Below are positions 9,700 to 53,045 of a stretch of DNA of 64,000 nucleotides, piece by piece. The position numbers and the translations under genes are program-made. This DNA is from Nymphaea colorata (lineage: Eukaryota > Streptophyta > Magnoliopsida > Nymphaeales > Nymphaeaceae), in contig NC_045140.1 of the NCBI RefSeq assembly GCF_008831285.2, positions 25,314,131-25,378,130 of the forward strand. Direction: 5' to 3'. The notes beneath the pieces are model-generated. The model saw only the letters and a list, made by a program, of their open reading frames with translations. It did not search any database and was not told the origin of the DNA. The stretch's first letter is position 1. The number at the start of each line of letters is the position of its first letter.

Positions 9700-9857
9700 T
9701 ATTATATATATATATATATATATTACACATACATGTATTATATACATGCAAATATGTTATACATATTATATGTACATGTATATTATATATATACATAGTA
9801 TGTGTATATGGATATATATTATAATGTCATATATATGTGTTATTATAACATACTAAA

Positions 9858-9897
<40 letters not shown>

Positions 9898-10155
9898 ACA
9901 TTGTATTATATATGTTAACATATTAATATATGTATGTTAATATTATGTGTATACATATACGTCATATATTATTGTATGTAACGCATATACTATAATATAT
10001 AGTACAACATATTAGATATGTATATATGTTATATACATGTATTATACAACACTCTATTATAACATATCATGTGTTATCATATAGTATATATTATATATAT
10101 GTATTATTATACATATACCATGTGTAGTATGTGCATTGAATATGTATACGACATA
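9700..10155. repeat. AT-rich microsatellite tract
   Basis: Long (TA)n runs at about 9706-9722 and 9861-9894, within several hundred bases made mostly of TATATA, ACATAT and GTATAT words. Open frames here are low-complexity Ile/Tyr/Met strings and are not genes. It could behave as an easily unwound or matrix-attachment region, but that is speculation. Confidence 0.8.
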
Positions 10156-12736: not shown

Positions 12737-15265
12737 TTAGTCTGAGATTTCCGTCGTCCGCGCTCCGTTGCCTCCGGATCTGGGTTGCCGTAGATACCGA
12801 ATTAAAGTTTCTGCCTGAACCAATAAAGAAGAGGGAAACATCAATAGAGTTATTTAATGGGGTAGATGTAGGTAAAGCAAGTTTTTGACAAACAATCGAC
12901 CAACAGCCCACACCATCTCATGGCTAATCCACTCAATTATTGAGGGTTACTTCCCTTCTCTCTCTCTCTCTCTCTCTCGCGTTTAGATCCGGTAATTAAA
13001 CCAGGTTGCTGTGCCATACCATCAGAATCCAAAAGGGCCAAGCACAAAATTCTTTTCCCCAGTGTTGGTTATCGATTCTACAGTACAGGGCCAGCCGCCA
13101 CCTCTCTTTCTCTCTGACACCCAATAATTGAGCTCAGAATAGACCAGAGACAGATGGGTCACTTCTGCGCAAGTAGGGCAGAAGGGACATTAAATTGTGC
13201 ACCAAATTGGAAATCATGTTGATAGACTACGGCACCCTCCAGGTCGGCGGTGGACGGAATTCAACTGAAAACTTGAAAAACTCACGATGAAATCCCAAAG
13301 CTAAGCGAAGATTCCTCCAGGAAGTAAATAGCCACAAAAAGATTGGAAGACAAAACTGTTCATACATCTCCTGTGTCTTCCAAAGTCCAAGCCGAAAGAC
13401 CCATAAATTAATGCCGTTTGAATTCGAACCTAGTTTTCACGGCCTTTGACAGACGAGAAGATAGCAGGGAAGAAGCTTCGGAAAGCGCTGGGAATTAAAA
13501 ACTTTTATGCATGTTTTAGAACCGGATAAAGAAAATAACCCATCGTGGCTGCCGCCATTAATGATGCATTGGAAACTGTCGGCAACAAATATATTTTACG
13601 GGAAATTTACAAGTTTTTATTTCTAGAACATGATGAGGCGGGTTGAGGCACGTCGGATGACCCACGTGACACGCCCGCCCACGCACAGGGTTGAAACAAA
13701 AAGACCATTTCAAGGGAGTGGCAGAGAAAAGGGACCATCCCGTTTACTGAAAAATGAAGCGAACCGGTTTGGTGACTATGGCACCAGAGCACCGTCAAGA
13801 AGGCTCGAGAAAGTCTTTTCCGGAAAAGAAGAGGGTTTCCAACGTCAGGCAAGGAAAGTCAAAGGCCAAATACGACAAACAACCAGTAGAAGCAGTATAT
13901 GCTTCGGGCCTGGAAGAACTTCTATTGACCTTTCTACTCCGAGAAATCCACAATCTGACCAACTCACACGAAGGGGACCCGAAAGCAGATTCTTTGCCAT
14001 CGGCATCACTCGGTAAATAGTCCGCGGTACCAACCCGCATTCCTTTCGATGGGACAGGAATGCCAATTCGAAAAGTAAAGGACCAATCCGTCATTTTAAG
14101 AAACCCAAAAGCGGCTGGCCGGAGAGGTTTCGTTCTTCCGGCTGGTTATCTAACGAATAACGTCGATGGTCAGGCGCCTTCAAGCCCAATCAGAACGCCG
14201 GGTTCAGCTCAAGGGACCGGAAAAGGTAAGAAAAAGTCCGACTCCTACCTTCTGCCTGGCTCGAGGTGTGCCGGTTTGCGATAACGCGACGAGCGGAGGT
14301 ATCGCTCCTTCCCTGGCGACCAATCCCCGATTGCGCGTGCTGTCCTCGCAGAGCTCCAGCAGGATTCCGGCGGCGAACTCTTTCTGCCGGTGATTCCCGT
14401 CCTCCAACACCTCGACAAGCACGGGGATACCACCCTCCTCCACAAGCGAGGCCCGCGCCTCCGGCGCCGTAGCCAGGTTCAGCGTGACCAGCGCGGCCTT
14501 GTCCACCATCCCGGATTCCGGTTCCGCCATGAGGTCCACCAGCGGCCGCATCACCCCCGCCTCGACCGCCCGTACCTTGTTCTCCTTCACCGTCGTGAGC
14601 GCGAACAGCGCCACCGCCGCGTCCTTCTTCCCCCGGAGACTCCCGCTCTCCAGGAGCCTGACGAGCGGCGGTACCGCTCCCGCTCGACCGATCCTCTCCT
14701 TGATTTCGTCCTTGTGCGAGAGCCTAAGAATCGCGCACGCCGCGTTCTCCTTCGCCGTCCCCGTCCCCGTCCGGAGCGTGCGGATGAGAGCTCGGTCCGC
14801 TCCCGCGCTCAAGATCCTTTCCTTGTTTTCGTCGCAGAGCGACAGGTTCAGCAACGCCGTGACGCCGAGCTCTTGGATCTGCAATTCCGACGACTGCGCC
14901 AGCGCCACCAGCGGCTCGATCCCGCCGGCGTCCGCAATCCGAACCCGGTTCTCCATGTTGTTCTTGGCGAGCAGCCGAATCTCCATCGCCGCGCTCCGCT
15001 GCGTCTCGAGGGATTCCGACTCGAGGTCCGACACGAGCTGCGCAATCGTTTCGTCGTCGTCGGGCCGGTCGCCCATGCATGCGGCGGCAAGCAGGCCCCT
15101 GCCTCCGGAGCCCGGCGCGAACTCGCCGGAGCGATCGCTGGCACAATCGCTGAAGGCGGACGTGGTGGAGTCGGCCCTCAGCCCGTCGAGGTTGCGGCCG
15201 AGGTAGCTGAAAATGGCGGAGGGGGAATTGAACAGGCCGGAGCTGTCGCCGTCCACCGTCGTCAT
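12737..15265 (-). CDS. ARM-repeat protein (PUB4-like class without a U-box), two exons, 364 aa
   Basis: Armadillo-repeat protein of the plant group usually labelled U-box domain-containing protein 4-like, though no U-box is present. Exon 1 (15265 to 14249) encodes 339 residues starting MTTVDGDSSGLFNSPSAIFS. This ATG is the first in frame; the open frame extends upstream only through non-ATG codons. Residues ~70-355 are helical ARM repeats with signatures such as AGGIEPLVALAQ, AGAVPPLVRLLESG, EGGIPVLVEVLEDG and EGAIPPLVALSQTG. Exon 1 ends ARQK at a GT donor (14248). The last 25 codons are in exon 2 (12814 to 12737), after a CAG acceptor: AETLIRYLRQPRSG, then GNGARTTEISD and stop. This restores the conserved AETLL-YLR-PR tail of the family. 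Total length agrees with Arabidopsis homologues (~355 aa). Role: protein-protein scaffold, exact function unknown. Exon 1 is strongly GC-rich. Confidence 0.9.
12815..14248 (-). other. Intron of the ARM-repeat gene
   Basis: A 1434-bp GT-AG intron (GTAGGAG at the donor, TTCAG at the acceptor). It contains a (TC)n run at 12957-12978. Open frames within it on either strand (for example 13630-14016) have no recognisable domain and are taken as chance. Confidence 0.75.
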
Positions 15266-18200
15266 CTGGTCTGAAGCCCAACCCTCTTCCGCACTCAATC
15301 CAGGTGACTCTTCTTCTGTCTTCTCCTCCCAACTTCTCTCCTTGGCGCCGGTCCGGTCTCTCACTGTGGGCTGCCTGGGATGCCTTTGCTTTGGGTTTAA
15401 GCCTTTTAAGGGGGAGAGGAGGGTGGTGGGGGCATGGGGCCCGCTCCTTCCTCGAGGGCGTGGAATTTGCAGTCTCTCTCTGCCCTACACGTGTACAGTC
15501 CACCGCGCTCGTATTATATCGATTTTTTTATTTTTAGGTGGATAAAAGTATCGGATGGAGCTCGTGGAACAAACTTGATGCCGATAATGTCCCTGGACGA
15601 GGGATCCGGTGCCCTCGCGTCAGAGGGGCAAGACCTGGAAAAGGGTTAGGCCGAACACACGGTGGAGGCACTGGCGTTCAACTTTGGCGGTCTGCCGTTG
15701 CGTGGTCGGAGGTGAAATCTCCGCGGCGGTCAGCGCGGTAGCTCTGACCGGAGTCCGGCGAGTTACGATTACCATCCCAACAAATTTTCTTACCGGCCCA
15801 ACTTTCTTAGTCATAACCTTCAAACAGCCTCGAGATTTCAAATATTTCTGTATGGGACAAGTCCTCCTTTTTTTTTTTTTTTGACAATAGTCAAAACCAA
15901 AACGACGATGGGCCCCGGTGCCATTTAAGATGCAGCAGCCCAGCTATCATGACCATAAAGGCGCAAATCGACTCTATATATAAAAAAATAACGCGATTCA
16001 TGGTTATTTTAAAGTGAAAATCCCGCGATAAAATGGAAACTATATCTTCATTTTTTGGATCTTCTCAATTCTGAAACTACCGAACAAGAGCTTGAATACC
16101 AATAATAAACATTGTCTATTGGATTCGAAGGAAATGCAGACCCAACGAATGCATGGACTGTAAAAAATTCGAGGGGACCGTACAGAACCTCTTCGGGTGT
16201 TTGGATGACAACTTTAACCTAAGTTTTGAGAGGTAAAACACGGTTTTGTTCCAAAACACTATTCCAAAGATGTTTAGATGACATTGAAACTAGGTTTTGT
16301 TCAAACTTTTTTTTAGCAAAACATGGTTTTCATGAAGAGCTCCAAACACCTGCCTTCCACTAACTTTTTTGCCTCTAAATCAAAATTTTTACTCGTCATC
16401 CAAACCAAGTTCACAAAAATAGTTTTTTACAAAACTTGTTTTCACAAAACCAAATTGTTGGATGGTGTCATCCAAACGCTCCATTCAAGATCTTCCTTTT
16501 TTCTAGTGTTTGATGCATGAGTTTGCTGTGGAGATAAAATTCTCCTACGAAATGTACCTTGAAATGTTTTTCCCGGTTCATCAAACGCCCCCTTAGCATG
16601 GGCCAATATAGCCTCAATTATATGAGTAATGCAGTTTTTGGACGTTTCCCAGTTATTAAAAGCGTAACTTTAGGGTTCAACCGTTATAAGCAGTCCGGTG
16701 TTTGGAGGGTTCCTAATAAAAAAGAAATTGAATAATTTCAACTCATAAAGGACATGGATAGCTTTTATTAGTTGTCTGCAGTCTGCACCTATATTTAACC
16801 TTCTTGGCATTGACACTTTAAAATGAGAAAATTTTGGCAACTAGAATATCTACTACTCCGGCCTTTGGAGGGTTCCTAATAAAGAAAACTTGAAGAACTT
16901 CCAGTTTTAAAATGACTGTAGGCACTTACTTTAGCTAATTATCGCCGACTGTTTTCTTGGTAATGACCGGAAAATATATAAAACCAATTCGGGAAGCAAA
17001 GAATAAGAAGCAAAACTTTTCCGGACTTCAGATATTTATTCGATAGAAAAGGGTAGGAATTAGACGACTGTTATCACGTGGCATGTCCAAGCCTTGTCTT
17101 GTCGCCGAGCCACAAGACCTATGAATGTTCCTGGTCACGTGACCACTGGCCAGAGTGATCAAAAGTTTTAAAAACAAAGCTAAATCACCGCAGAAATAAG
17201 ACGACAAATGGCAATGAATTCGATATATATGTGTATTTATTGATTGAGTGAAGGGCGACTCTCACCGAACCATCTAACTAAAGTTGTTCATGTAAAGATG
17301 GTTGAAAGAAAAACGATAACAAAAAAGTTTAAACTAAGAACTGCATTACCATCATTTTTTTTTCTTCTGTTAACTGTTCGTCATTTCGATTGAATAGCTT
17401 TAGTTAGATGACAGAGTAGTTTTGAAAAACCACCGTCACCATTCAATATATATATATATCCAATTGAGGATTTAAGTTTCTCATCAACTACTAATATACG
17501 CACTAAGTTGTATCTGCAAGCATTCAGTGTTCCAGACTTTCACGTATCTTTCTTTGGATTTTAATTTGTGATCGCATCATCTTATCTTCAGATAGCTATG
17601 TCGATAAAAAATCCAAAATTATTGAACTACTCCCATATCCAATCCCATGTTCATCGTTAGACAATATTGGGCCTGGTTGGGTGGCTAAACCATTGAAAGC
17701 TTAATAAATTGGTAGAGCTACCAAATCATTCGGATCCAGAAAAGAAAGAAGCAGTTCAACTGCTCTACCACATGTTTCTGCACAACAGGATCCGCTTTAA
17801 TGGTTTTTCTCTTTTTACTTGAAACTGGTCCTTCTTCTTCTTTCCTTGCCTTCATCTTCAGGATCTTGCAGGCATCTAGTTGGTCAAACTTTCAGGTCGT
17901 TTCAATTTATTGTAAAAAGCACTTGCTTCAGACTCTCAACATGGAATCATTTTCTCTTAACAGGGAACCACTTGCCTTCTTTGCACTACAAAACTATGAG
18001 ATGAAGAACTGTCGAGTTTTCATAAGAAACGTCCCCCTACTTTTCTTCCCTTTTCCCTTTGTGTACCACCCATGATTTCATTGCTGTTGCTGATTAGAGA
18101 CACACCAAGTCCTCCCAAAAGCAGATCTATAGTTCTCTTTTGGTTTGTTGAAAAGTTTCTTAAAGCAAAGAGCTAACGGAAAATAATAGTTATTTTTTTT

Positions 18201-25450: not shown

Positions 25451-25788
25451 TCTATAAATTGGATTAGATAATAAGCATTCGGCTAGTTAAAATTTCCTGT
25501 ATTCAGTTTTCATGCATTTTCGTTCTTGACATTGAAATTACATTTTAGATCCGATCCAGTTGCAATTTAAAAGCGAGGTACCGATCGGATCCAAAATGTT
25601 AATTTAAAGCTCCGATCCAGACATTGTACAGACTTTTGTTCAATCACATTTGAATACAATTTCAAATTCGTAACATGCTGAACAGTCAATAAATCAGATA
25701 TGGTAGAGGTCGGTATATACAAATTGGAGGTTTTTCCTTCAGAGCCTCCACTATCACACTGCAAATAGCAATTTACGAAGAACAAGCA

Positions 25789-27107
25789 ACTGCTGAAGAA
25801 ACGCGGAGCGGCAATTGAAACCTCATCACTTTGACCTCTTCTTCTTCTTCTACTTGTTCCACTTGAGATAAATTTGGTGAGCCAAGCCACCAAACACCAT
25901 GAACACGCAACCCCATTGCTTTGCAGACAACGGATTACCACTCAACAATGAGGGTACAACTATACTTACGAACTTGGGTTGTTGTGATGGTGAGGGATCT
26001 GAACCTACTGATGGTCATGAAGATAAAGTTCTGTCCAACAGCGCCACACATACAGAACAGGAAGATGTCCCATGCTGCTCAAACGATAAAAGTTTAAAAC
26101 AGAAAAAAGGGACGCAAGAACGAGGGAATCTGGGAAAAGAGAGAGAGAGAGACCGACCTCCGGTGTGCCGCGTCCGTGAAGACCTCCCGACGGCAAGCTT
26201 TCTGGTGTCGATGAGCGAGAGACGCCGACACAGATCGTCCGTGAAGACCTCCGACGGCAAACTTTATGCAATAGCACTTTTGCAATGCAATAATACGTGC
26301 CAAATTGTAGATTTTATAATTTCTTCTAGTTCTCTTCACAATTCTTCAACTATGATCCTTTGTGTTTCAATCTGTTCTCATTTTCATGTTTGAATGAGGA
26401 TCACATCGTAATACCAAATAAACAAAATAATAATGTTAAAGATGGAAAATTACCAATATTGCGCAATCCATTACCAGCGCAATTTTCACATTATTATTTT
26501 GTTTATTTGGTATTACGATGTGATCCTGATTCAAACATGAAAATGAGAACAGATTGAAACACAAAGGATTAGTTGAAGAATTGAGAAGAGAAGTAGAAGA
26601 AATTATAAAATCTACAATTTGGCACGTATTATTGCATTGCAGAAAGTGCTATTGCATAAAGTTTGCCGTCGGGAGGTCTTCACGGACGATCTGTGTCGGC
26701 GTCTCTCGCTCATCGACACCAGAAAGCTTGCCGTCGGGAGGTCTTCATGGACGCGGCACACCGGAGGTCGGTCTCTCTCTCTGTCTTTTCTCTGCTTCCC
26801 TCGTTCTTGCGTCCCTTTTTTCTGTTTTAAACTTTTATCGTTTGAGCAGCGTGGGACATCTTCCTGTTCTATATGTGTGGCGCTGTTGGACAGAACTTTA
26901 TCTTCATGACCATCAGCAACCCGCAAGTTTGTAAGTATAGTTGTATCCTCATTGTTGAGTGGTAATCCGTTGTCTGCAAAGCAATGGGGTTGCGTGTTCA
27001 TGGTGTTTGGTGGCTTGGCTTACCAAATTTATCTCAAGTGGAACAAGCAAAAGAAAAGAAGTCAAAAGTGATGAGGTTTCAATTGCCGCTCCGCGTTTCT
27101 TCAGCGG
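25789..27107. repeat. Long near-palindromic inverted repeat (hairpin), arms ~647 and ~619 bp, loop ~53 bp
   Basis: The left arm (25789-26435) and right arm (26489-27107) are reverse complements with few differences. Both encode the same peptide series when read outward (MNTQPHCFADNGLPLNN...) and inward (CLQSNGVACSWCLVAWLTKF...). The main length difference is about 30 nt, present at 25978-26010 in the left arm and missing on the right. Each arm carries a ~24-nt direct repeat (GTCCGTGAAGACCTC...; left copies at ~26172 and ~26237). The loop contains AAAATT/AATTTT, so pairing can extend almost to the centre. No transposase or known domain was recognised. It could be a foldback element, an inverted duplication of a gene fragment, or a precursor of hairpin-derived siRNAs. 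Confidence 0.9.
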
Positions 27108-27345
27108 TTGCCTAGGTTCACATCTCACAATGGTGGTGCTCCATGACTTGAACCCAGCCTTGGAAATAGGAACAACCTTGGGAGAAGTAGCAAAAAGAGT
27201 GGAAATGGACGCAAACCTATTTGTTGAATAATGCTAAATGCTTTCAACGCCAGATGACTTAGCAGTTGTCTATAGTGGTTGGAGAATTTAATTAAGTTCA
27301 ACTTCTTCAAATTTAGTATTTGCGTAAGCTATGAATATTCTCTTT

Positions 27346-27490: not shown

Positions 27491-28818
27491 TGTTCAAACG
27501 TGGCATCCTCTTGGACACTGCTTATCATAGGTTTGAATAAGAATGCAGATATGTTGGAGAGAAAAACATGGTGTATTCTTCTGGCAATAAAACATTGAAA
27601 ATCCATGCTTTGAAATAGTGGCAGAAGTTTACCTGCAGTTTCAACTCAAACAGATAATTAAATGTACGTTGCCTTTGTCAATTTATGATGTGGGTATTAA
27701 ACAAGGTCAACCGATGGACTGGGATCCTCATTATATGGAGCAGGTTTTTTAAAACCTGTCTAACTGATATCAGACCCTGTCCTCAGCAGTCTCGTTATAC
27801 CTTGTCTCAAAATACTCCAGGTAGATGTTACACCCATGAATACAAAACACACCCAAAATAGTGGATGGATTACCCTAATTACTACCATTATATAAATGTT
27901 TCCATGACATCCTTCTTCAACTTTGAAACCAAAAAAAAAAAAAAGTTGGAGATGCACGTTAAAAAAAAAAAAAGTTGGAGATGCACGTTAAGTATAACAA
28001 TCCAAATCAAGCCAACTCAAACTTTGAAACGAAATTTCAGATGTCACTTTGGGCGGTTAATGGGCCTTCATTCATCAAACTCTGTACCTTTTAATTTTGC
28101 AACAATGGCAACAGGACAACTTGATCTTGGATGAACAATCTAGACACCAAATTGATTATTGAAGTAGCTTACTGTCTTCTTTTTGTTCTTTTTTTCTTGG
28201 AATCTTTCATTTCATAACTTTCCTATTCCAGGAGTCAGGCACAGAATTCTTGGATATTGTAAGGGAGGGTTCAATACCAACTTGTAAACACAAATATGTT
28301 CTAGATGAAGAAATTGGGATCATATGTGAACTTTGCAAGTTTGTAAACCTGGAGATTGGCTATACTTTACCACCTTTTGTAAGTAACTCAATCTGACGAA
28401 ACTAACTCCTCCTAATCTTGTTCTCGATTTGATTTAAACTAAACTGCTTTAATGTCCTTTGCTGCAGAACTCATGTTTAAATATGTGCGATGACTTAACT
28501 GGTAAAGAATGAAATATGAACAGACTTTCTGAATTAGATGAAGATCTGTCCCTGATACCAGACATGAGAAGCAAGCTTCTTGTCCATCAAAAGAAAGCTT
28601 TTGAGTTTATATGGAAAATATTGCTGGATCGGTTGAGATAGGAGAGATGGATCATACATCCGGCAGGGCAGGTGGTTGTATAATCTCAGACTGTCCAGGG
28701 ACTAGGAAGACGCTTCCTGTTATAGCGTTTCCTAAAAGCTACCTCAGTTTGCTTCCAGGGAACAATACCCTGGTATTAGTTCCAAAGGTTACACTCTATG
28801 CTTGGACAAGGGAGTTTG
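27491..28818 (+). pseudogene. CLASSY3/4-like SNF2 gene fragment, left inverted arm (broken)
   Basis: A partial genomic copy, introns retained, of a plant CLASSY-type SNF2 gene; intact proteins recruit RNA polymerase IV for RNA-directed DNA methylation. At about 28231-28380, after a TTCCAG acceptor, it reads ESGTEFLDIVREG... with the paired-cysteine segment YVLDEEIGIICELC typical of CLASSY proteins. A helicase-start segment follows at 28560-28818 (VHQKKAFEFIW, SGRAGGCIIS, KVTLYAWTREF). Defects: one A missing in the run after TTTATATGG (about 28613) shifts frame; the Walker A motif reads GTRKT instead of GTGKT; stops occur upstream; homology ends abruptly near 28818. Most of the helicase is absent. 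It is a reverse-complement relative of 32622-33975, and the shared intron shows DNA-level duplication rather than retrocopying. Confidence 0.75.
27932..27990. repeat. Tandem duplication of an A-run plus GTTGGAGATGCACGTT
   Basis: About 29-30 bp (poly-A, then GTTGGAGATGCACGTT) is repeated head to tail. The corresponding site in the right arm (about 33520-33555) has one copy, so this is specific to the left arm. Confidence 0.85.
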
Positions 28819-29689
28819 GAAGTTGCTCACTCTATCGGTGGCATCATGGAAACCATAATTACCAAGACTGATTCTATACAAATATTGAAATTTATTAATT
28901 AACAGCCTATTCTTGGTCCCATGTGATTGTGGATATTTTGCTCTTAAGCATGGTGTGGCCATATTTAAGGAAAACGACTACTTTCAATGGGGTTTGTCAT
29001 ACCGGAAAAGCCTAAGCCTCCCACAAGGTTCAAGGTCGCTTCGGGACCTGGGTGGGAGCATCGTCGTTGTTTGCAGTTTAGAAGATTAACACCTATAAAA
29101 ATTGAATTAATGATGTGCCATTTACACTCTGCGAGCTCAACCAACTATGATGGATATGGAAAAATTTGAGTGGCTAGACTTGCTTCTACTATGTGCTTTG
29201 ACATTTCTATTTTATTTGATTATTGGCATGCATGAAAAATCTTACATTGTTGACTTGATAAGTTGATAGACTTTCCATTTGTTTTCAGGTTAAGCTCATA
29301 GTTAAGCTCATAGCTGCTATTTACAGTTCCTTTATCATCAATAAATCCAGTGGATTAATCTTTTACAAGGTAGTTATCTATTTCTCTTTCCTATTTCCTA
29401 GAGAACAGTGTTCCATGATTTTGGATAGTTGAGGTTTGTAGGAAATCATCAGTGTACTTGTTATGTTTTTGTATAAAAGGCATTTGGTTTCCAAACTACA
29501 GTTTTTATTTCTTAACTCTTCCATAATCATTGATCTACTCATAGTCCAGGATTATGGATCACTAGGATGCATGGTCACAAATGATGGCTTGTGAATAGCA
29601 AGTCTATGACATTCAATGCATGCAATTTTCGAACAACGGTCTCAAATGGTGGGTTGTACATGTGAGTTTAATGTTTTTTCATTAAGGTA

Positions 29690-29925
29690 GTGTTTGATAG
29701 CATGAACATATGGAATTGAAAATATATTTTCAGAAATATATTTCTTGGAAAAATGGAATGAAAAAAATCTTTCCGATTTCCATTTTGATGTTTGTGTGAT
29801 GACTGAGAAATATAATTCCAGAAACATATTTATGTGTTTGATGATAAAGAAACATATTTCCAGACTTTTAGAAATATATTTCTTAGTTTGATACAGGAAA
29901 CATATTTCCAGATTTTCTAAAAGAG
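29690..29925. repeat. TE-terminal fragment with subterminal AAACATATTTCC repeats
   Basis: Starts GGTAGTGTTTGATAGCATGA, followed by at least five variants of GAAA(C/T)ATATTTC(C/T). A similar start, GGTAGTGTTTGATAAGCATG, occurs at 31769, and inverted TTTCCGGAAACATA words at 32292-32355. Dense subterminal repeats are a feature of hAT and MULE ends. Identity with a known family could not be established. Confidence 0.4.
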
Positions 29926-31823
29926 AAAGATTGATCTAACCCATAAACACACATCAAATACAGTTGGATGCTGTTGTTAAAAAGTGAGAGTCATGGATAA
30001 AAAACTTCAACTTCCATTATTTCAGAAGCGAACTGCAGCAAACTAAAAAAAAATCAACCTTAGGGGTTTTTAACTGGATTGATTGCTGGTTCCAGTAATA
30101 CGGACCACATATATGTGAGTATAACAAACTTGTATTATTTTCTGATGGTTGCTAATTTTATTCCTTTGTTCATTACTTCATTTCATTATGTTCACTAACT
30201 TCCATAAACTTTACACATTAGTTTGGACTGTACCATATCCAAGCAATATGGCACAAGATGCTTGAAGAGACTAAATAAACCTCATCAAAAGAGTTATTTT
30301 TGCAACCATTCCATTGGCCCAAAACTTTTTGCATAACTCCATTGTCTAGTTTCAGGAAAATTGACAGTTTCTAGCATCTTTAAGGTCAAAACCTTTAGAT
30401 TCACTACCTTTTCTAAATTTTGGAACTTTGAACATAAGATAAAACCTGAACAACATGAGCTACTGAGTTGAAACCTAAGCTGGCAGCAGTTATTTTTAGT
30501 TGAGAATATACTTGTATAGAAAAAAATTGATGTACAGAAGCTTCGATAGAAACAAAAGAGAGTACTTGCTCCTCCAACACACAATAAAGTAGGAGCAACA
30601 TCACTTAAACAGGGTTTAAAAATTTAATGTACAAACGATCTATGTAAACTAATAAGAAGTAACTTGCTTCTTCCAAAAACAAGCTAATAGCAGCAGCATC
30701 ACCTAAGTAGGTTCTACTTCAGACTGAAGAGAGATGCAGAATATGAGATGAAGTTAATTTCTTTAGATACATTCCCAGACGGACATACGGACCATGGAAG
30801 AAATCCTTCAACGGCAATGAGAAAAAGAACCTTTGCTTAGTGAGTGATTAGAGTGAGTGCCTTCTAAATAGAACGGAATAGTGCACTCTCCCAACACCAC
30901 CATATCGTCCCACTAGATAAGGGGACAAAGACCAACAACATTGTTATCTCATTCAGGGGACAAAAAAGTATTCTCATGATGATAATGCTCACACTATTAG
31001 ACAGAGCAGTCGATAGAAAGTTAAGCAAGATGGCAATCAGAGAACCACAATATCACAAATTATGAAACAATGAAAGAATTAAGCCTTCACTATCCAGACA
31101 ACCCTCCCATTTTAATGATTGCAGAAATGCCCCCAAACGAACCATGAAGAAGGAAGAAACCAGAATCCCAACATTGACAGAGTAGCGATAGACTATACGG
31201 ATGGCCAGCATCCTAGTACACAGAATTCGCTAAAAATAAGACTACCTTCATAAACCACCAGACCAAAGGAGCAAGATAAATAATCCCATCTTTTCAATTC
31301 GAAACCAAGTGTAAACCGATCCCTGCCCAAATTCCCAATAACAAATGGGGCAAAAAATTCCAACCAACGTAAACCCTAAACGAGCATCTTTCTGTGAACT
31401 TCCAATTGCCAAGAAACTAATTAAAAATCTTTCAATAAGTGGTAACAAAAAATCCACCAGAAACAAAGAATTTATAGAAATCAAAAGCACAACAATATAG
31501 GCCAATACAGTAACCAGCACTATCTACACGTAACTCCCAAAAAGGCTAGGGCCAGTAGCAGATCATCCGCTTCGAACAAACCCAATTTGTACTTCAGTTG
31601 AAAAATGCAAGAAGTGGAAAAGATTACAAGGAAAAGTAAGACACGCCAAGCTTTCTGCTGGTCACAAACACGCGATCCCCGAATCAATAATCGCCAAAGG
31701 GCTCACAGTCGATGGAGTTGCAGAAATTTGAAAGAAAAATGAACATCAGCCAACACATACATTTGGGTAGTGTTTGATAAGCATGAGATGATAGGCCGCA
31801 ATGGACGGTGGGAAAATGGCGGA

Positions 31824-31826
<3 letters not shown>

Positions 31827-31877
<51 letters not shown>
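31827..31877. repeat. (AG)n microsatellite
   Basis: About 50 bases of uninterrupted AG. Read on the minus strand it makes the Ser-Leu run inside a 306-codon open frame (31703-32623) that I do not accept as a gene. Confidence 0.95.
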
Positions 31878-31880
<3 letters not shown>

Positions 31881-32389
31881 TTCACCCCTGCTAGACGCTT
31901 ACGCTGGTGAGGAGATGCCCAAATCAAGCCACTGGTGAGAACGCTGTGCAGGAGGAAGAACGCTGTGCTGGCGACGGAAGGCGTCTGAGGTAGCAGCAAG
32001 GAGAGAAGGGGAAAGGCGTGACGAAGGCAGGTTGGGTGAAAAAAAGTCGCGAGGGTTTCGAGTGAGAGAGTGAGAGGGTTTTGAGGGAGACTCCTTTCAG
32101 CAGAATGAGAAAGTCGTGAGGAGGAAAACAGAGACTGGTGTTGAGGCTGCGGTGGGGGTTGAGGAAGCAGCAGGGTGAGGCAGCTGCGGAGGATGAGCAG
32201 GGTGAGACAGCTGCGAAGGATGAGAAGAGCAAGACGAGGAGGAGAGAGACGCCAGGAGCAGCGCCAACGAGCAAAAAAAATAAATAAAAAATTCCGGAAA
32301 CATATTTGCACCCCTCGGGTGGAAATATGTTTCCGGAAACATTTTTCCGGAGTCGATCTCAACGGTCGAAAATAAAATTTCGCGCAATC

Positions 32390-34930
32390 TGACTTTCTCG
32401 GACTTGTAAAAGAGGAAAAACATGAGTCGCTCATTAATAATATGCTCGGGCTTTCATACCATTTGCACAGTTTCTCAAGGCAATCCATGATCCGCTTCAT
32501 GCCAACAGGCAGCTTTAGACCACCGAGCAAACCATTTGATGCTTCACCATTCCTGGATTTCATAACCTGATAATCACGGGTTGCGTAGAGTTCATATACG
32601 GGAAGACATATCCCATTTCTCAAACTCCCTTGTCCAAGTATAGAGTGTAACCCTTGGAACTAATACTAGGGCCCTGTTCCCTGGAAACTAACTGAGGTAG
32701 CTTTTAAGAAACGCTATAACAAGAAGTGTCTTCCCAGTCCCTGGAGAGTGTGAGATTATACAGCCACCTGCCCTGCCGGATGTATGATCCATCTCTCCTA
32801 TCTCAACCGATCCAGCAATATTTTTCCATATAAACTCAAAAGCTTTCTTTTGATGGACATGAAATAGACATGAAGGTTGCTTCTCATGTCTGGTATCAGG
32901 AACCAAACATCTTCAGATCTGGCTGAATTATTAGCTATGTTTCTTAAGTTAAACTTTCAGGGCAGATCTTCATCTAAATCAGAAGGCCTGTTCATATTCC
33001 ATTCTTTACCAGTTAAGTCCTCGCACCGATTTAAACATGAGTTCTGCAGCAAAGGACATTAAAGCAGTTTAGTTTAAATCAAATCGAGAACAAGATTAGG
33101 AGGAGTTAGTTTCATCAGATTGTGTTACTTACAAAAGGTGGTAAAGTATAGCCAATCTCCAGGTTTACAAACTTGCAAAGTTCACATATGATCCCAATTT
33201 CTTCATCTAGAACATAATTGTGTTTACAAGTTGGTATTGAACCCTCCCTTACAATATCCAAGAATTCTATGCCTGACTCCTGGAATAAGAAAGCTGTGAA
33301 ATGAAAGATTCCAAGAAAAAAAAGAACAAAAAGAAGACAGGAAGCTACTTCAATAATCAATTTGGGGCCTAGATTGTTCATCCTAGTTCAAGTTATCCTG
33401 TTGCCATCGTTGCAAAATTAAAAGGTACCGAGTTTGATGAATGGAGGCCCATTAACTGCCCAAACTGACATCTGAAATCTCGTTTCAAAGTTTGGGTTGG
33501 CTTGATTTGGATGGTTAATACTAAACATGCATCTCCAACCTTTTTTTTTTTTTTCTTTTGTTTCTAAGTTGAAAAAGGATGTCATGGAACATTTATATAA
33601 TAGTAGTAATTAGGGTAATACATCCTCTATTTTGGGTGTGTTTGTATTCATGGGTGTAACATCTACCTGGCCTCTTTAGAGACGAGGTATAACGAGACTG
33701 CTGAGGATAGGGTCTGATATCAGTTAGACAGGTTTTAAAAAACCTGCTCCATATAATGACGATCCCAGTACATCGGTTGACCTTGTTTAATACCCACATC
33801 ATAAATTGACAAAGGCAATGTACATTTAATTATCTGTTTGAGTTGAAACTGCAGGTAAACTTCTGCCACTATTTCAAAGCATGGATTTTCGATGTTTTAT
33901 TGCCAGAAGAATATATCTGCATTCTGATTCAAACCTATGATAAGCAGTGTCCAAGAGGATGCCATGTTTGACACGTGCACAAATAACAAGAATCCATTCA
34001 TGACTTTGTGCTAGGCAAATTTGTGACAACATCCAGAGAAGAAGTAAAACAGATCTCAGCTGCATTATTCAGAACAATGAAATAAGAAAAGAGAACAAGA
34101 AAAACAAGAGAACCAATCCTCTTGGTCATTGAAGAGATTCAGCTTAAATAACAAAGGTACATTGCTGCAGTATGGAATAGTCATGGTTGTATCATGTAAT
34201 TCAATGCAGTAAAAGCTAAAAGGTATCCCATATTCAACCAACTTTAGGTTGTCCATGTGCATTCATAAATAGCAAACTAAAACAAGGATGAATTATTTTA
34301 CCTCATTGACTGGGGACTGTGGAACATGTAATGAGATATGTTCCAACTCTTCCCATAAACTATCAAGGTCAGAGTCGGTGTTCTCAACTTCAGTGGGTGG
34401 AGACCACTGGAGAACATTTATGGAAACATTTCTTTGCTTTGATCTTTTCATCATTTCCCACCGAGCACTAAAGGCAGTGGCAGCACTCTGTGCTCACAGT
34501 CAATGACTGCCGAAGCACTTCTAATTGTTTATTGCACTGCAAGTGAAAAAGCTTTTTGGACATTCCTTTATTGAAATAATTATTTCTAACTGTAGAACTA
34601 TATGCTTGTCTTCCATGTGACTTGTATGGCTTTCCTTGTTTCTTCATAGAGGAACTGTTGGCTGCACCGACAAATGTAATTTTTCCTTGAACAGTCTGTG
34701 ATTTGCCATCTGAAAGCTTTGGGCTACAACTTTTTCCACCTTGGATTTGTGACCTATGTGAAAACTTCACATTTACTTTTCCTTCTTTGGTTGATGTTGT
34801 TTTTTTCTGATGCTTTGGGATATTATAGAAGTTGTGGTCCTCGGATGCAGCTTCTATGACCTTCTGGTTATGAGCATCTTTAGAACCTGAAATCCAAAAG
34901 CAAGGGCAAGTATTACAGCTCACCTTGTGA
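32390..34930 (-). pseudogene. CLASSY3/4-like SNF2 gene, truncated and broken, right inverted arm
   Basis: Minus-strand remnant of a CLASSY-type SNF2 gene. In order: a charged N-terminal-like segment (34923-34500), an exon after a CACAG acceptor (about 34494-34290) with ENTDSDLDSLWEELEHISLH, the CLASSY cysteine exon (about 33290-33130: ESGIEFLDIVREG, HNYVLDEEIGIICELCKF), then WFLIPDMRS, VHQKKAFEFIWKNIAGSVEI, an intact Walker A region (SPGTGKTLLVIAFLKSYL), PRVTLYTWTREFEKWDMSS and CLEKLCKWYESPSILLMS. Homology stops near 32390, where TE-like sequence begins, so helicase motifs II-VI are missing. Other defects: an in-frame stop after DEDLP (about 32960) and a small ATGTC(T/C)AT duplication (about 32852-32872) that shifts frame before VHQKK. 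The segment 33975-32622 is duplicated in inverse orientation at 27491-28818. Family role (Pol IV recruitment in RdDM) is established knowledge; this copy looks inactive. Confidence 0.75.
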
Positions 34931-36929
34931 CTTTTGCAAAATCCTGCATTTCTGTGACTTTTTTACAAAGTGCCTCACTTCTGTCTCTGTCTTGTACCTA
35001 AATAGATTTCAAACAGAGGAACAACACTCTGATTTTGTTCCAGGTCCGACTTTCCCTTGGATTACATCAGGGCTCATGCAGGAAAATAACTTATGGCATG
35101 CCATTTTTCTAGAATTAGATGGCCTGACATTAAAGGTAATAGAGTACTCTGCTGTGTGGATCATCAAAATATCTTTTTCAAAGTACATTTTATGCTTTGA
35201 GTTGCTTGGCAGCTGCAGCAGGAATTTACAGTGTTTTTTTCTACATCTACTTACAGAAGCCCAAAGTTGAAACCGACGTATTGTACGACAACTTGCAAGA
35301 AAAATTATAAATGAATTAGAAGTATACCTGGGAAATTCTCCATCATGGATGTGAAGCTGTCAGGTTTACAGTTTCAGTTCCATTATGTGATTTTGCATTT
35401 TTTAAAATTTTTTATAAGATATTAATGTATGACCAGTTGAGGATAGGTATGATGTGATCATAGTTCATGTAATTCTCATGCCCACATCCATGTTTTACCT
35501 ATATTAATGGTTATGCTGACATATGTGATCAATGATGGGTATAACTATGATTAATATGGCAAAGACAACTTTGGTTTTATGTTAATACGATCATGGATGA
35601 GAATGATTGAAATGAAACATTATAAGATAGCAATTTTGAGTTCATAAAGTTAAGTTATCCTGCAATGCATGAACAAACAAATCACACATTTGGGAGATTG
35701 TGGTAATCTATGTGGGCCTACATGTGTTCTCACATATTTATGCATCGTATGCTATTTAATGGATAGACCTGCAATTGTGATCAATTAGGTTGGGTTTAAT
35801 TGTCATTTCCAAGAATACAAGTAATTAAAAATGTGTGCATACCAGACATGAATTTTGGATCCATTGATGGGCTGGATCTGGAAATTAATTATCAATATAT
35901 GGTAGTGGTCCTCATAGCCATAGTTTTCCAGATCAGTTTTTATTTTCCTGCGAATTTAATATCTACGATTTTTTTTCTTCATTACATTTGTCTCACAATA
36001 GGAGCAACGGATCTTTGGTTTGAATAGTTTGCCCATGTCCACTGGGATTACAATTACTGGAGCAGGTTCGGTGCAATGGTTTTTGCATTTTTGATCCAAA
36101 TCCAAGTCGACAGCTCTGACCCATCTGCCACCTTTCGGTGACCCAGTCCACGTCCAACTTGAACGCAAAATTAAGTATTCAACTGAATGACATTAATTTG
36201 AATAAAATGGACCAAAATCGAGGCAATGAGAATTATGTTTTTTCTTGACAAAAAAAACACACGTTTATACATGTCGGATTCCGGAATCCAAACACCGTTT
36301 TTTTTTTCGGGATTTCTGTTTTGATTTTTATTCAACGAGCCGTTCCGGTCACGATTGGGCTGCTGTATTTGGTCAAAGGATATTCCAATGATAAGATCCT
36401 TGGAGAGATCCATTATCCATTGATGATTGTTCGAAGTCTCTTGATAGGGAATCGAATCCCATATAGATTTGGTTCACATGGAAAGTTGGTTCATATTAAG
36501 AGCTGAATTTTTACATTCCTAAAGAAAAAATTTGCCTCTTGCAAATTGATTGAAATAATTAGTTACTGCTAGAGATGGCGTTTTTAAAAAATGGTGTTCC
36601 ACAGTACTTGACTAGAATAGGAGAAGATATTTTATACAAGCTTAGGACTTAACATGCTTTCAACTCAATTTCGAGTAAAAAAGAAGCTTTCATCAATGGA
36701 AGTCTCCCCAGTTGGGCTGCCCAGTTCCATAATCGTGTTTGCTGGGTGAGCAATCCCACTATTCAGGCGGAGAGTTGAAACCCCTTTCATAATATGGGCA
36801 TTATGCGCTAAGTTTCTTCTATGGAAAGTCTTGGTAGAAAATGTTGATGGTGACCTGATAGAAAATGTTCAAATATGTAAGTAAACTGCAAGTTAAAGAA
36901 GGGTGATGGTGACCTGATAGAAAATGTTC
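34931..36929. other. Intergenic, nothing firmly recognised
   Basis: AT-rich DNA. The open frame at 36321-36506 on the plus strand (residues such as HYPLMIVRSLLIGNRIPYRF) is not a family I know. The two near-identical 31-bp segments around 36840 and 36901 (GGTGACCTGATAGAAAATG) form a direct repeat. A copia remnant begins just beyond. Confidence 0.35.
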
Positions 36930-47623: not shown

Positions 47624-50243
47624 CTAGCGAGCCAGGGCGCGGCGCAGGACCGGGACCAGCATCTGGGGAGCGCTGAGGTGCGGCAGGTGGCCCTCGGCTT
47701 GCAGGATCTCGACCGTGGCCTTGCCGCCCAGGTGGGCCTTCATGTAGTGGGCGACGGAGAGCGGGACGGACATGTCCTTGATCCCCTGGATGATGCAGCA
47801 CGGCACCTTGACCAGGCCCAGGATGGGCCGGAAGTCGCTGAAGAAGACCGTCTGGCACACGAACAGCGAGATGTCCGGCCTCATGTTGAAGAGGGTCCGG
47901 CTGAACTCGCGGACCGCGACGGGTACGTCGGCGCCCACCGCCAGCGGCGCGTACCCGGACACCCACGCCTCGTAGTTCGACTCCATCGCGCTGAACACCT
48001 TCTCTATCTCGTTGCGCTCGAACCCACCGTGGTAGTCCTTGTCGTTCAGGAACCTGCATCCCCGCATCTTTTAACGTTCTCTCGCCTCGGGAGAGTATTT
48101 TTAATGAAATAAAAAGAATTGAATACAAGCGAGCCAAACATGGGTTTAGGAATATCCAGCGATACGAACAGAATTTTACGATATTAATACACGTAAGATA
48201 GGTTAAACCATCGAGATCAAGTATCGGACCTCAGAAAAAGGCAGCTTCAATTCAAATAATTGATGCAAAACGACTAAGCACATTTAAAATTTCACTAGAA
48301 ATTGAAACCGTGCACCAAACTAATGATATAAATGATCCTCCATCTAGTTTTCCCTCCACAAAAATATAAAAAAAAAAAAGATCTAGTTTTACCTATATAC
48401 ATATATATATAAGAGAGAGAGAGACTTGGACAGACATCTTTTTTTACTCTATTAATGACCATCCAAGTGGGGTCTCAAATGCTTTGTACGTAAACTCATT
48501 ATAAAATGCACGGGAGGCCCAATTGTACATGATAGTTATCCAAAACTTGCGTGGCGTGGCTAACAATAAATATGCCCACACCCAGCCCCTATTAAGTCAC
48601 TGATGGTTTTATGAATCAAACAGCAAAAATGGGCCACATCCAAGAAGTGGAAGAAGGGGAGATGAACGTTCAAAATAGCTAATCAAATTACCTGGAAAGC
48701 AGGGTTTTTTTTTTTTTTTTTTATACACGAGTTTCGGTTAGAGCCCAAGCTTATCTCGTTTATTAGCAGGTCTGAGTGAGTAGGGCCCGAGCCAAGTTCG
48801 TTCGAGTAACATGAGTCAGACTGGCAGGGGCCATGGGCCCATGGCTCCCCCTCTGATTTTGATAAAAAAAAAAAATTACATGGTATAATTTATAAAAATT
48901 CCATTTGACATTGAAAAATATAATTCGTGCCCGTAATAATTTTAGAAATATCGGTCGGCCCACTGAGAAGAAATTTCTTCTTCCAACACTTGTCTCAATC
49001 GATAAAAACATTTGTTATAGTTTTCGTAACTTATTTTAATGAAAGAAAAATTGAAAGGTAGGACGGGTCATCTAAGATGATGAGCGAGCGGTTGCGATAA
49101 AAACAGCAAAATCACTTCATCTCTTTCTTCATCATTCACCCACCCACTAAAAAAACACTTACGGATACATATTGTATGCAGTTTTCCTTCTTTTAAAACA
49201 TATGGTCACACTCGAACAACATTCTTAAATAACAACACGCTTTTTTTGAAGCAAGGAAATGAAATTTGCACCAAGTTGGTTCGATTTCATTAGGGAAAAG
49301 AAAAAGCAAGGCGAAAGTATCGATCCAGAACTCGGCAGCAAGGAAGCAAATTTCTCTATCTCTTTTTTTTTTTTTCTGAAGAGAAGATAAACATGCTTTC
49401 TGAAAAAACCCCAGGTTTTGGGCTTTTAAGTTGCCAACAATAAACATTACTATTTTTTAAACAACGGGCTAATCACACTACCCGAGACTAATAAGATTTT
49501 AGACTTTTTAAAAAAATTTAAAACAAAAAAAAGGGGCCCGACGTCCTCGTAAATGACGGATGTATCCCTATACCTCATCCGAAAGAAAACATCCCCTTCG
49601 CTCTACGACTGCGAACCCGTTCCATGTATCGCGTCATTTAAAATTCATCTCTGTACAATACGGTCATTTATGAAACCGCGAGGTTCCCTCCCCGCGGTCG
49701 TCGTCGTCGTCATCTCCGTCCCCTTCTGACCGATCTTCCCTTCCGATTGAGTGGCAAGATCGTAATAAGGGGAACGGAGGGGAGAAAAGCTCGCCGCGGA
49801 AGAAACGGACGAAGAAGATGGGGAGATGAGGAGAAAAGGGGAGAAAGGAAGGAGTGAAGAGGTAGGTACCTGGGGGAGGCGCCGAGGAGGACGAGCTTGG
49901 TGAAGAGCTCGGGGCGGCGGATGGAGGCGAGGCAGCCGATCATGGCGGAGATGGAGTGGCCGACGAAGGCGCAGCGTTCGATGCGGAGGGCGGCGAGGAC
50001 GTCGAGCAGGTCGTCGACGTAGGGGTCGAGGGAGGAGTACCGGGCGAAGTCGAAGTTGTCCGGGTTGACGCTGCCGGCGCAGACCAGGTCGTAGAGGACC
50101 ACCCGGAAGTCCCTCACCAGGTACGGCAGCACCTTCTGCCACGCCGACTGGTCCGTCCCGAACCCGTGAGACAGCACCAGGAACCGGTCCCCCGTCCCCA
50201 CCACCCTCACGTTCAGAACCTCCAGCAGCGATGTCCTCCCCAT
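47624..50243 (-). CDS. D14: Strigolactone receptor D14 (alpha/beta hydrolase), two exons, 267 aa
   Basis: DWARF14: an alpha/beta-hydrolase that binds and hydrolyses strigolactone, then binds the F-box protein MAX2/D3 to trigger degradation of SMXL/D53 repressors and restrain shoot branching; it acts in nucleus and cytoplasm. Exon 1 (50243-49870) starts [18 protein letters not shown] and carries the oxyanion region [11 protein letters not shown] (residues 25-35), [12 protein letters not shown] and the nucleophile elbow GHSIS (Ser97). The donor splits Arg125 (AG|G). Exon 2 (48053-47624) resumes [12 protein letters not shown] and holds the lid helices, [14 protein letters not shown], the catalytic Asp218 (QGIKDMSVP) and His247 (EGHLPHLS). 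Length and triad numbering coincide with Arabidopsis D14 (267 aa; Ser97/Asp218/His247, from memory). The YDLVCAGS segment fits D14 rather than the KAI2 type (YDNMGAG). Both exons are very GC-rich. A TATA-like TATTAAATA lies at 50405-50413. Appears intact. Confidence 0.95.
48054..49869 (-). other. D14 intron
   Basis: An 1816-bp GT-AG intron (GTACCTACC donor, GATGCAG acceptor) that interrupts the Arg125 codon. Unlike the exons it is AT-rich. It carries a poly-T run at about 48703-48721 and a palindromic GGGCCATGGGCCCATGGC segment at about 48827-48845, likely TE-derived. No coding features. Confidence 0.8.
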
Positions 50244-50404
50244 CTCTCGATCGATCCAAGGTTCCAAATGGGGGAAAACGAAGAAGACGGAAGATAAGAA
50301 GAGAGGAAGAGGGGATTGAGACTGAGAGGAGTGATTTTGTTTTTGTTCTGAATATTTCTTCCCCCTTCTTCTTCTTCGCATTCCTCTTCCTCTGTCGTTT
50401 GGGG

Positions 50405-50413
50405 TATTTAATA
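50405..50413 (-). promoter_or_regulatory. Candidate TATA box of D14
   Basis: TATTAAATA on the minus strand about 165 bp upstream of the D14 ATG, followed by a leader with CT-rich tracts. Position fits a plant core promoter; not verified. Confidence 0.4.
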
Positions 50414-53045
50414 CGATTTTGGGCGATGGCGGATATTAGGTGATGTCTTTTTGTGGTGGTGGTGTTGCATGATGATGAGTTTATTGATTTTTTATCCCCC
50501 TTTTTTTTCTTTTTTTTACAAAAATTGCGAACGCCGGTTTCGTCTATGATCTATTTGTCAAATCCGCCTCCACTTTTCATATATTTCATTTTGCCGCTCG
50601 GTGAACCAGATCGAAACGCAGCTGTTGCTTTCATTTCATGGTTCTGGATAAAGAAAAACGTTTTGTCCTTTCCCAGAGCATCTCTCTTTCATCAATGCTC
50701 TGAATATAAGGGTTCCCATCTCTCCTCTCGTAAAGATTTTTTTTTTTAATTTTATATTAAAACTTAAATTACAATATTTAATTAATAAAATGAAAAATAC
50801 TTCCGTTTCAAACGCACTTCTTAGTTAAGCACATTTTTCAATACAAGCAAGTTGGTATTAAGAACCACCTTCAATTCAAAGCTCTTTTTTGACTAAAACG
50901 CCTTCTCTACCTCGAACTGGAATATCTTATTGGACTTCATATTCTTCTAACTATTTGATTCTGTAGCCGTTCTTTCTTTACTGATTTATGCTTTGTAAAA
51001 TAAAATAGGGGAATCCCCTGGCAGTCTGGAGTGCAGCACTTCTTCTTTTTTTTCCTCTTTTGAAATAAAAGAGAGCATCTGCGCTCAAAAAGCAAGCCTA
51101 CTTACTAATGACATAATTTTCAGTAAAGAATTGAAGCCGTTGAGGGCCTTCAGACTCGGGTCCGAACCAAAAATCACCAAACTCAAGTTAATCAGATTAC
51201 TAAACCTTGTTAGTGCAGGGCTGGAAAAATTAGTACTTTCTCTTACGGTGTAGGATTTACATTATTAAGTAGTTGATAGTTAGATGTTAAATCAGTGTTT
51301 TTTTGGGTCAGCAAGAGGTTAACACCACTCTACTCGCAAAAGAGCCCAAACCCGCTCCTCCCACCATGTCCTCCTTCTTTCCGTCTCATATATATATATA
51401 TATCATGTGGGTTCTCGGCTGTAATAGGGTTGTGGACCAATGTTTGTCAGCTAGCACATGCTCTCACATCATCATTAATACAGCGACATAGAGCCCACGA
51501 GAATTGACTTGGGAATGTGCTGTTTAATGTGCTCCTAACCCAATCTGATATTAAATGCTCCTTTTTAAATTTCTATGATCTCAGACTTTTTTTTTTATAA
51601 ATTATCCCCCAATTTCCTTTTCAATTTTCTTTGTGTTGTCTTGTAGTTTATGTGATTGGGTTGGACTTAAACTTTGGGAAAACTACCAATGCCATAAGAA
51701 GGTATTTAAGAGGAAAAACTTCGTATTTTTCAAAGAAATGTTCCTAAACCACAAGTTTTAAGAACACCTACCTCCATTCTTTTTCGAAAGAACATGGTAT
51801 ACTTACGGATGTTGTTAGACCCAGCAACCAAATTCTGGATATAATGACACAATGTTTCATAAAATAAGAATTATTCTTGGAACCTGTATTATCAGAATAT
51901 GGTAAGAACTAAGTCTAGCCTTAACTCGTTAACCCATCTCGCGCTTGAATAAAATCCAAATAAAATATTTTAAATGGATTTGGACCACCACTATCGTCCG
52001 GTGGAAAAACTTAGCAAGCAAAAGTTTCAGTAGAGGACCAATTCTTTCTCATAGTTCCATTGCAGAACCCCCCACTTTTCCTTTTCATCATCTACCCACT
52101 CAATTTTTCAAAATTGAGACTTGCCGTCACTCGTGCATCCGAACTTAGCTTTTAGGTTAACCACTGAATGACGCCGAGTAAAAGAATCGTTAACATCTTT
52201 CCTTTCTTTTCCACAATAGCGAACATTCACTTTTTTAAAAAATTAAATAAATGGATACATGCAGCACTTGATTTTTTTTTTTTTTCGTTAAAATAACAAA
52301 CTTTGTGGCCTGAAGGTTCCATTTCATGGTTATCGGGAAGGTATAACGTGTAAAATAAAATAATAAAAACCATGGAGGCATTTGGACCGGATCTGACGTG
52401 ACCTTCTAAATTTAATAGATATCCTTGTGGGTCCAATTGCGGCCCAACCCAAGGCAAAATTGGCAGTATTCTTTTCAATTTTTTTTTACTTGTTTTCGCT
52501 GATCTTCAAGGGATTTGGCGTAATTGATGGGGTGGAAGCTGATAGGCAACCAATCTACTTTTCGAATTTTTGTGACAAAACTCTCTGTACTGCAAAGGAG
52601 AGATCAACCATACACAAGTAGCACCCTAAAGCACTAAAACCGGGTCATATACCCTACGAGAACAAGCCGATCCCTTGTTCAATTCATGTTGGTGTCAACC
52701 CCTTCAAATGCCTACCTTGGCATTCAGGGGTATCTAGATGGTGCGAAAGAACGTTTAAGACGGCCATTCAATTTCCACGACATCCTTCTTATTTAAACAG
52801 GACGGAGAACAGACCATGACATCCTTCAACATGGCTCCGGAATTTTGATCAAGACAACCTAATAAAATTGAGTTTTTGATGACTGTTTGTACATGATTTT
52901 TCATTTGGGGAGACATGGTAGCATTGATTTAATTTGGGCTTGTGTACATTCCATTCTCCTAAAGATCTCTACCATATGTAGAGATAATAAGAACTCATTT
53001 TTGAATTGTACCATGAAGGGGTCGTGGGGCATCCAGAACAGTTTG

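Follow-up and report, generated by a model that had tools for sequence, protein, structure and literature searches.

Within a 64,000-nt stretch of the water lily Nymphaea colorata, referred to here as the window (C3:25314131-25378130), two broken copies of a CLASSY (CLSY) type gene face each other. Our data indicate that these fragments are pseudogene relics of the repeated local duplication of a CLSY1-2-type gene, a reading to which we assign a probability of about 0.82. The original prediction for this DNA had placed the copies at 27491-28818 (+) and 32622-33975 (-), some 3.8 kb apart, and we found the inverted repeat within 4 nt of those coordinates, with a measured spacer of 3,802 nt between its two arms, referred to here as arm A and arm B.

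Searching the genome (407.8 Mb) with the DNA of arm A returned 8 matches, 3 of which lie in the window, 4 at C3:25.06-25.07 Mb and 1 at 24.03 Mb. At the second of these places there is an intact gene, G (C3:25055445-25062491 including the stop, or L009:1445-8491), approximately 280 kb upstream of the window pair. G has five exons, GT-AG introns and a single frame of 1,373 amino acids without a stop. On the opposite strand, 5.7 kb downstream of the G stop codon, lies a broken copy, F (C3:25068191-25069232), which has lost most of the helicase part through a 1.6-kb deletion. In opposite orientation G and F match at 94.3% over 714 columns and at 84.4% over a further 334, and 5.3 kb separates the matching parts. 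At the G-F locus as a whole (C3:25055445-25069232; L009, L010), an intact gene of the CLSY1-2 type and its broken counterpart thus stand tail to tail. When 608 amino acids of G exon 5 were used as a query, no further match on C3 was both long and unbroken.

Relative to G and F, the window contains the following features (window coordinates):

27494..28818, plus strand: arm A, a CLSY1-2-like fragment running from the middle of intron 3 across exon 4 and intron 4 into the first part of exon 5, matching G at L009:5596-6953
28816..29148, plus strand: continuation of arm A, sequence just beyond the G stop codon (L009:8571-8894) fused to exon 5 by a 1.6-kb deletion, with a junction common to F
29149..29685, plus strand: sequence flanking arm A on its 3' side, homologous to the corresponding flank of F (C3:25067666-25068191)
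29686..32387, no strand assigned: 2.7-kb replacement block of multi-copy repeat pieces (approximately 29680-29949 and 31776-32281) and a 1.6-kb C5-like stretch, standing in for the remainder of the gene and the former spacer
32388..35365, minus strand: copy B, the sister of G (L009:4201-7188), a CLSY1-2-like pseudogene that opens at the end of exon 2 and extends through the first third of exon 5
32621..33971, minus strand: arm B proper, the section of copy B complementary to arm A

The copies were located as predicted but are longer than had been claimed, since B spans 32388-35365 and A runs on to 29685 with 3'-flank sequence.

The relationships among the four copies carry our reading. Arm A and F contain the same 1.6-kb deletion with identical junction letters, exon 5 being joined in both to sequence past the stop codon. 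Where all four copies align without gaps (651 columns), G pairs with B and A with F at 8 informative sites, and neither of the other pairings has any; with the junction columns retained, the counts become 13, 0 and 0 with the same pairing ahead. The approximately unbiased (AU) test gave p=0.996 for the tree joining G with B and A with F, and approximately 0.004 for each alternative, including the tree in which the arms are sisters. This makes G the sister of arm B, and F the sister of arm A. Because the arms belong to different lineages, they are not an inverted duplication made at the window, which is how the pair had been described; the arms are not each other's closest relatives, and the facing layout is older and present at the source locus too. 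We rejected an origin of the arms by local inverted duplication on the basis of these sister relations and the AU value of 0.004.

Damage to arm A and to copy B is independent, in agreement with the claim that each copy has its own lesions. Besides the 1.6-kb deletion, arm A has a 1-nt deletion, a nonsense TGA and a 60-nt gap that keeps the frame, while copy B carries a frameshift in exon 3, an 11-nt insertion and a TAG in exon 5, and has lost its 3' part. The 5' end of the gene is missing from both arms, with A beginning in intron 3 and B at the end of exon 2; of the gene 5' region searched (L009:700-4300), the window contains only the last 98 nt. The window copies retain only the first part of the SNF2 domain and cannot make the CLASSY protein. 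Among 10 open reading frames (ORFs) in and around the arms, the arm A ORF has a partial SNF2 match (PF00176, 6.5e-5, below the curated cut-off) and one other a weak match to DUF7358 (E 0.052); the remaining 8 had no Pfam match at E 0.1. A 72-amino-acid arm fragment had no match among solved structures at E 0.01, and no Rfam family matched the window at gathering score.

The window order, A forward and B reversed, is the reverse complement of the source order, G forward and F reversed. Together with the sister relations, this suggests as the simplest account that a tail-to-tail pair formed first and was then copied with inversion; we infer that the pair moved as a single unit, which locus is the older, and the order of events. 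An older event would have produced a full gene facing a second copy, and the second copy would then have lost most of its helicase part through the 1.6-kb deletion. The pair would next have been copied within C3, in inverted form, to the window, with another probable relic at 24.03 Mb. At the source (C3:25.055-25.069 Mb) G is still open beside its broken partner F, while in the window both members are broken, A having lost its 5' part and B both its 5' and 3' parts. Repeats and C5-like DNA have replaced the ground between A and B, where a 1.6-kb stretch (30178-31767), flanked by repeat pieces, is 92% identical to C5:1597266-1598850 and was possibly carried there by a transposon.

The 24.03-Mb locus (L011) has a 5' part resembling that of G (91.4%), together with two stretches of F flank at 87.6% each, the 5' flank and, reversed, a piece of the 3' flank. 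Since these pieces preserve the outer order of the facing pair, this locus is probably a third relic of it. Further pieces on C3 comprise exon 2 at 673900-675063, 5' flank at 24992140-24992734 and 3' flank at 25079421-25080311.

We simulated neutral substitutions at the rates of the G branch and found that G stayed free of stops in 2.7% or 1.6% of 3,000 runs, depending on which of two outgroups was chosen. Several observations weigh against the account given above. Separate movement of A and B would also be compatible with the tree, and among the 206 columns of the quartet of G, B, A and L011 none is informative on where L011 belongs. In the compared region, the ratio of non-synonymous to synonymous changes on the G branch is 5:4 with A as outgroup or 6:3 with L011; on the B branch it is 7 (plus 1 stop):2 and 8:3, respectively. 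These coding changes are too few to show constraint, so the function of G rests on its open frame.

The exon structure of G allowed us to revise the type of CLASSY gene involved. Exon 5 of G matches the SNF2 (PF00176, 4.2e-21) and Helicase_C (PF00271, 1.7e-18) domains. Against solved structures it matched 80 sequences at E 1e-5, of which the 60 listed are general SNF2-family or helicase-like entries with none named CLASSY; exon 2 had no match among solved structures at E 1. The N-terminus of G may resemble that of Arabidopsis CLSY1. As described in PMC12389316, 12 of 13 CLSY1-2 (clade 1) genes have five exons, while 18 of 22 CLSY3-4 genes have three. Since G has five exons, as do most genes of the former clade, the parent gene fits the CLSY1-2 type by exon number. 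Relatives whose open frames (rather than splice sites) fit three exons were found on C4, as one gene with a strongly acidic first exon, and on C6, in 2 of 3 copies inspected; the C4 and C6 relatives match G exon 5 at 36-38%. A CLASSY3/4 parent was rejected on exon number and on the separate three-exon-type genes on C4 and C6. The prediction of a CLASSY3/4-like SNF2 gene thus stands for a CLASSY-type SNF2 gene but fails for CLSY3/4, as the parent has five exons and the CLSY3-4-like genes with fewer, long exons lie on C4 and C6. G resembles proteins of the CLSY1-2 clade, which is reported to link SHH1 to Pol IV (PMC11603163), in having SNF2 and Helicase_C domains and five exons, whereas the window copies are mere fragments.

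Two further arrangements of related sequences were observed. A CLSY3-4-like gene occurs at three places on C6 within 190 kb (25523169-25524932, 25634605-25636368 and 25707285-25709048), two in one orientation and one in the opposite. Four copies of a cysteine motif like that of exon 4 lie on one strand of C7 within 31 kb (C7:16553239-16583916), and these are not among the SNF2 matches at E 1e-20.

It had been proposed that the arms, if transcribed together, could yield double-stranded RNA (dsRNA) that targets the parental gene, and we asked how well their similarity supports pairing. With gaps counted, BLAST identity between arm A and arm B is 90.5% over 1,064 columns and 88.5% over 295 columns, approximately 1.3 kb in all; when gaps are ignored, arm A and copy B agree at 94.4% of 1,277 aligned bases. 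This match runs through exons and introns at the DNA level, as claimed, extending in the parent gene from the second half of intron 3 through exon 4 and intron 4 into the beginning of exon 5. Arm A has 389 of its 1,305 21-mers in common with arm B, with a longest exact run of 93 nt, whereas none of 200 shuffled versions of arm A had any 21-mer in common with arm B. The G coding sequence has 4,102 21-mers. Copy B as a whole contains 586 of these and F 136, and 89 are present in both arms, enough in principle for small interfering RNAs (siRNAs) from the arms to match the parental gene. The similarity is thus neither too low nor too short for pairing, and siRNAs from the arms could match the intact gene. 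The arms could act as a hairpin in principle; judged from the sequence, silencing of G by the window pair is possible but unsupported.

Comparison of the window with its own opposite strand (BLAST, E 1e-20, minimum 150 nt) gave, besides the CLSY arms, only a foldback at 25786-27111 and a weak match at 9703-10042 (70.8-71.7% identity). The foldback is near-complete and adjoins arm A; self-complementarity reaches 90.5% across 1,368 columns, only 43 nt separate the inner arms, and the hairpin is tighter than that of the CLSY arms. Parts of it are multi-copy in the genome, while the whole unit seems nearly unique among the 40 scored of 92 candidates.

The best surviving alternative, although unlikely, is that the window pair is a natural RNA interference (RNAi) locus of the soybean I type. 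Here an outside promoter would drive a transcript over both arms, the resulting dsRNA would give siRNAs that lower G mRNA, and RNA-directed DNA methylation (RdDM) would limit its own machinery. The 21-mers and the exact run common to the arms, as well as the G coding 21-mers found in both, are in favor of this. In soybean, GmIRCHS is described as a tail-to-tail pseudoCHS repeat of 1,087 bp with a 78-bp gap and a captured DnaJ promoter that yields CHS dsRNA (PMC13051633). The soybean i-i allele is described as having two identical 10.91-kb arms 5.71 kb apart, and the genes that are silenced, CHS7 and CHS8, as having 81% similarity each to CHS4 (PMC6710647). Given that spacer and those targets, neither a 3.8-kb spacer nor a diverged target is fatal to the RNAi-locus reading. 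As these reports present it, the I locus resembles the window pair in having inverted gene copies, which in GmIRCHS are broken and meet tail to tail, in the presence of relatives at other sites, and in either arms of approximately 1.1-1.3 kb (GmIRCHS) or a multi-kb spacer (i-i). It differs in the DnaJ promoter and 78-bp gap of GmIRCHS and in the identical arms of i-i, whereas the window arms are 88-91% identical with gaps and lie 3.8 kb apart.

Several observations argue against such a locus in the window. The gene's own 5' end is absent from both arms and its promoter region from the window (no plant-specific method was applied to find other promoters or fusions), approximately 59% of the stem is intron, as counted on G (L009:5596-6953 against the G exons), and the arms have diverged without homogenization. 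As a footprint of methylation, C-to-T and G-to-A changes were counted by sequence context. In the comparison of G, B and A (101 sites), CHG transitions numbered 4 in A, 2 in B and 1 in G, too few to weigh; in that of G, B and L011 (28 sites), CG transitions numbered 5 in G, 2 in B and 0 in L011. At these small counts, the arms show no clear excess of C-to-T decay over G. The self-limiting loop that had been suggested is therefore not supported, given arms that are without the gene 5' region and not homogenized, and cytosine decay that is not clearly above that of G. The precedent of rice pseudogene siRNA loci, which comprise inverted pseudogene pairs and gene-pseudogene pairs, also differs: as described in PMC2708354, the hairpin search there was limited to loops below 2 kb, and the two rice hairpins so selected had mapped small RNAs, whereas the window loop is longer. 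On the preferred reading as relics, the window pair would now do nothing specific beyond, at most, drawing background 24-nt siRNAs.

If a loop exists, the G-F pair is a better place to look for it than the window, because that pair includes an intact gene. Read-through of G or F would there give RNA antisense to the other, and we consider this quite improbable. In its favor are the opposite-orientation matches of 714 and 334 columns and the 136 G coding 21-mers found in F. Rice gene-pseudogene pairs with complementary small RNAs are, according to PMC2708354, enriched within 10 kb (21 of 38, compared with 437 of 11,956 pseudogenes, or 3.7%). Earlier work cited by PMC12680349 has OsCLSY4 targeting two miniature inverted-repeat transposable elements in the OsCLSY3 promoter, which provides a precedent for action of RdDM on a CLSY gene. 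Against read-through stand the open frame of G, by which G is not permanently silenced, and the 5.3-kb gap between the matching parts. A broader proposal earns equally little credence: recurrent tail-to-tail CLSY1-2-type copies (two pairs and the probable third relic) would yield siRNAs that restrain the single intact copy found, via RdDM or RNAi, mainly at G-F and with the window pair in support.

The weakest alternative, that the window copies are misplaced haplotypes of the G-F locus, draws on two loci alike in content and only 280 kb apart, but is scarcely credible. Reversal, together with breakpoints that differ at either end, is not expected of a second haplotype, and G and copy B disagree at 4.4% of their aligned bases. 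Apart from the CLSY pieces, the similarity between the window and 20 kb at the source is confined to sequence related to the foldback and to stretches that are short or score low, and a further relic is present at 24.03 Mb.

Elsewhere in the window, a long open frame at 14204-15484 (-) contains armadillo repeats like those of plant U-box/ARM proteins and lies in the most GC-rich 2-kb step (59%). An alpha/beta hydrolase open frame (PF12697) occupies 49710-50435 (-) and may resemble the KAI2/D14 receptors.

As relics, the fragments are ordinary, and they chart the spread and breakage of one CLSY1-2-type gene on one chromosome, of which a single copy is still open. Among the titles and abstract openings surveyed on CLASSY, RdDM and siRNAs, none describes a CLSY inverted repeat or pseudogene, which does not establish its absence from print. 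Should small RNAs from the fragments prove to reach G, the silencing machinery would be restraining itself, in a natural and testable example for which the 714-nt G-F stem is the exact place to look. In the gene set of PMC12389316, a clade-1 protein from Amborella is absent. A five-exon CLSY1-2-type gene in a water lily would bear on when the CLSY1-2 clade arose.

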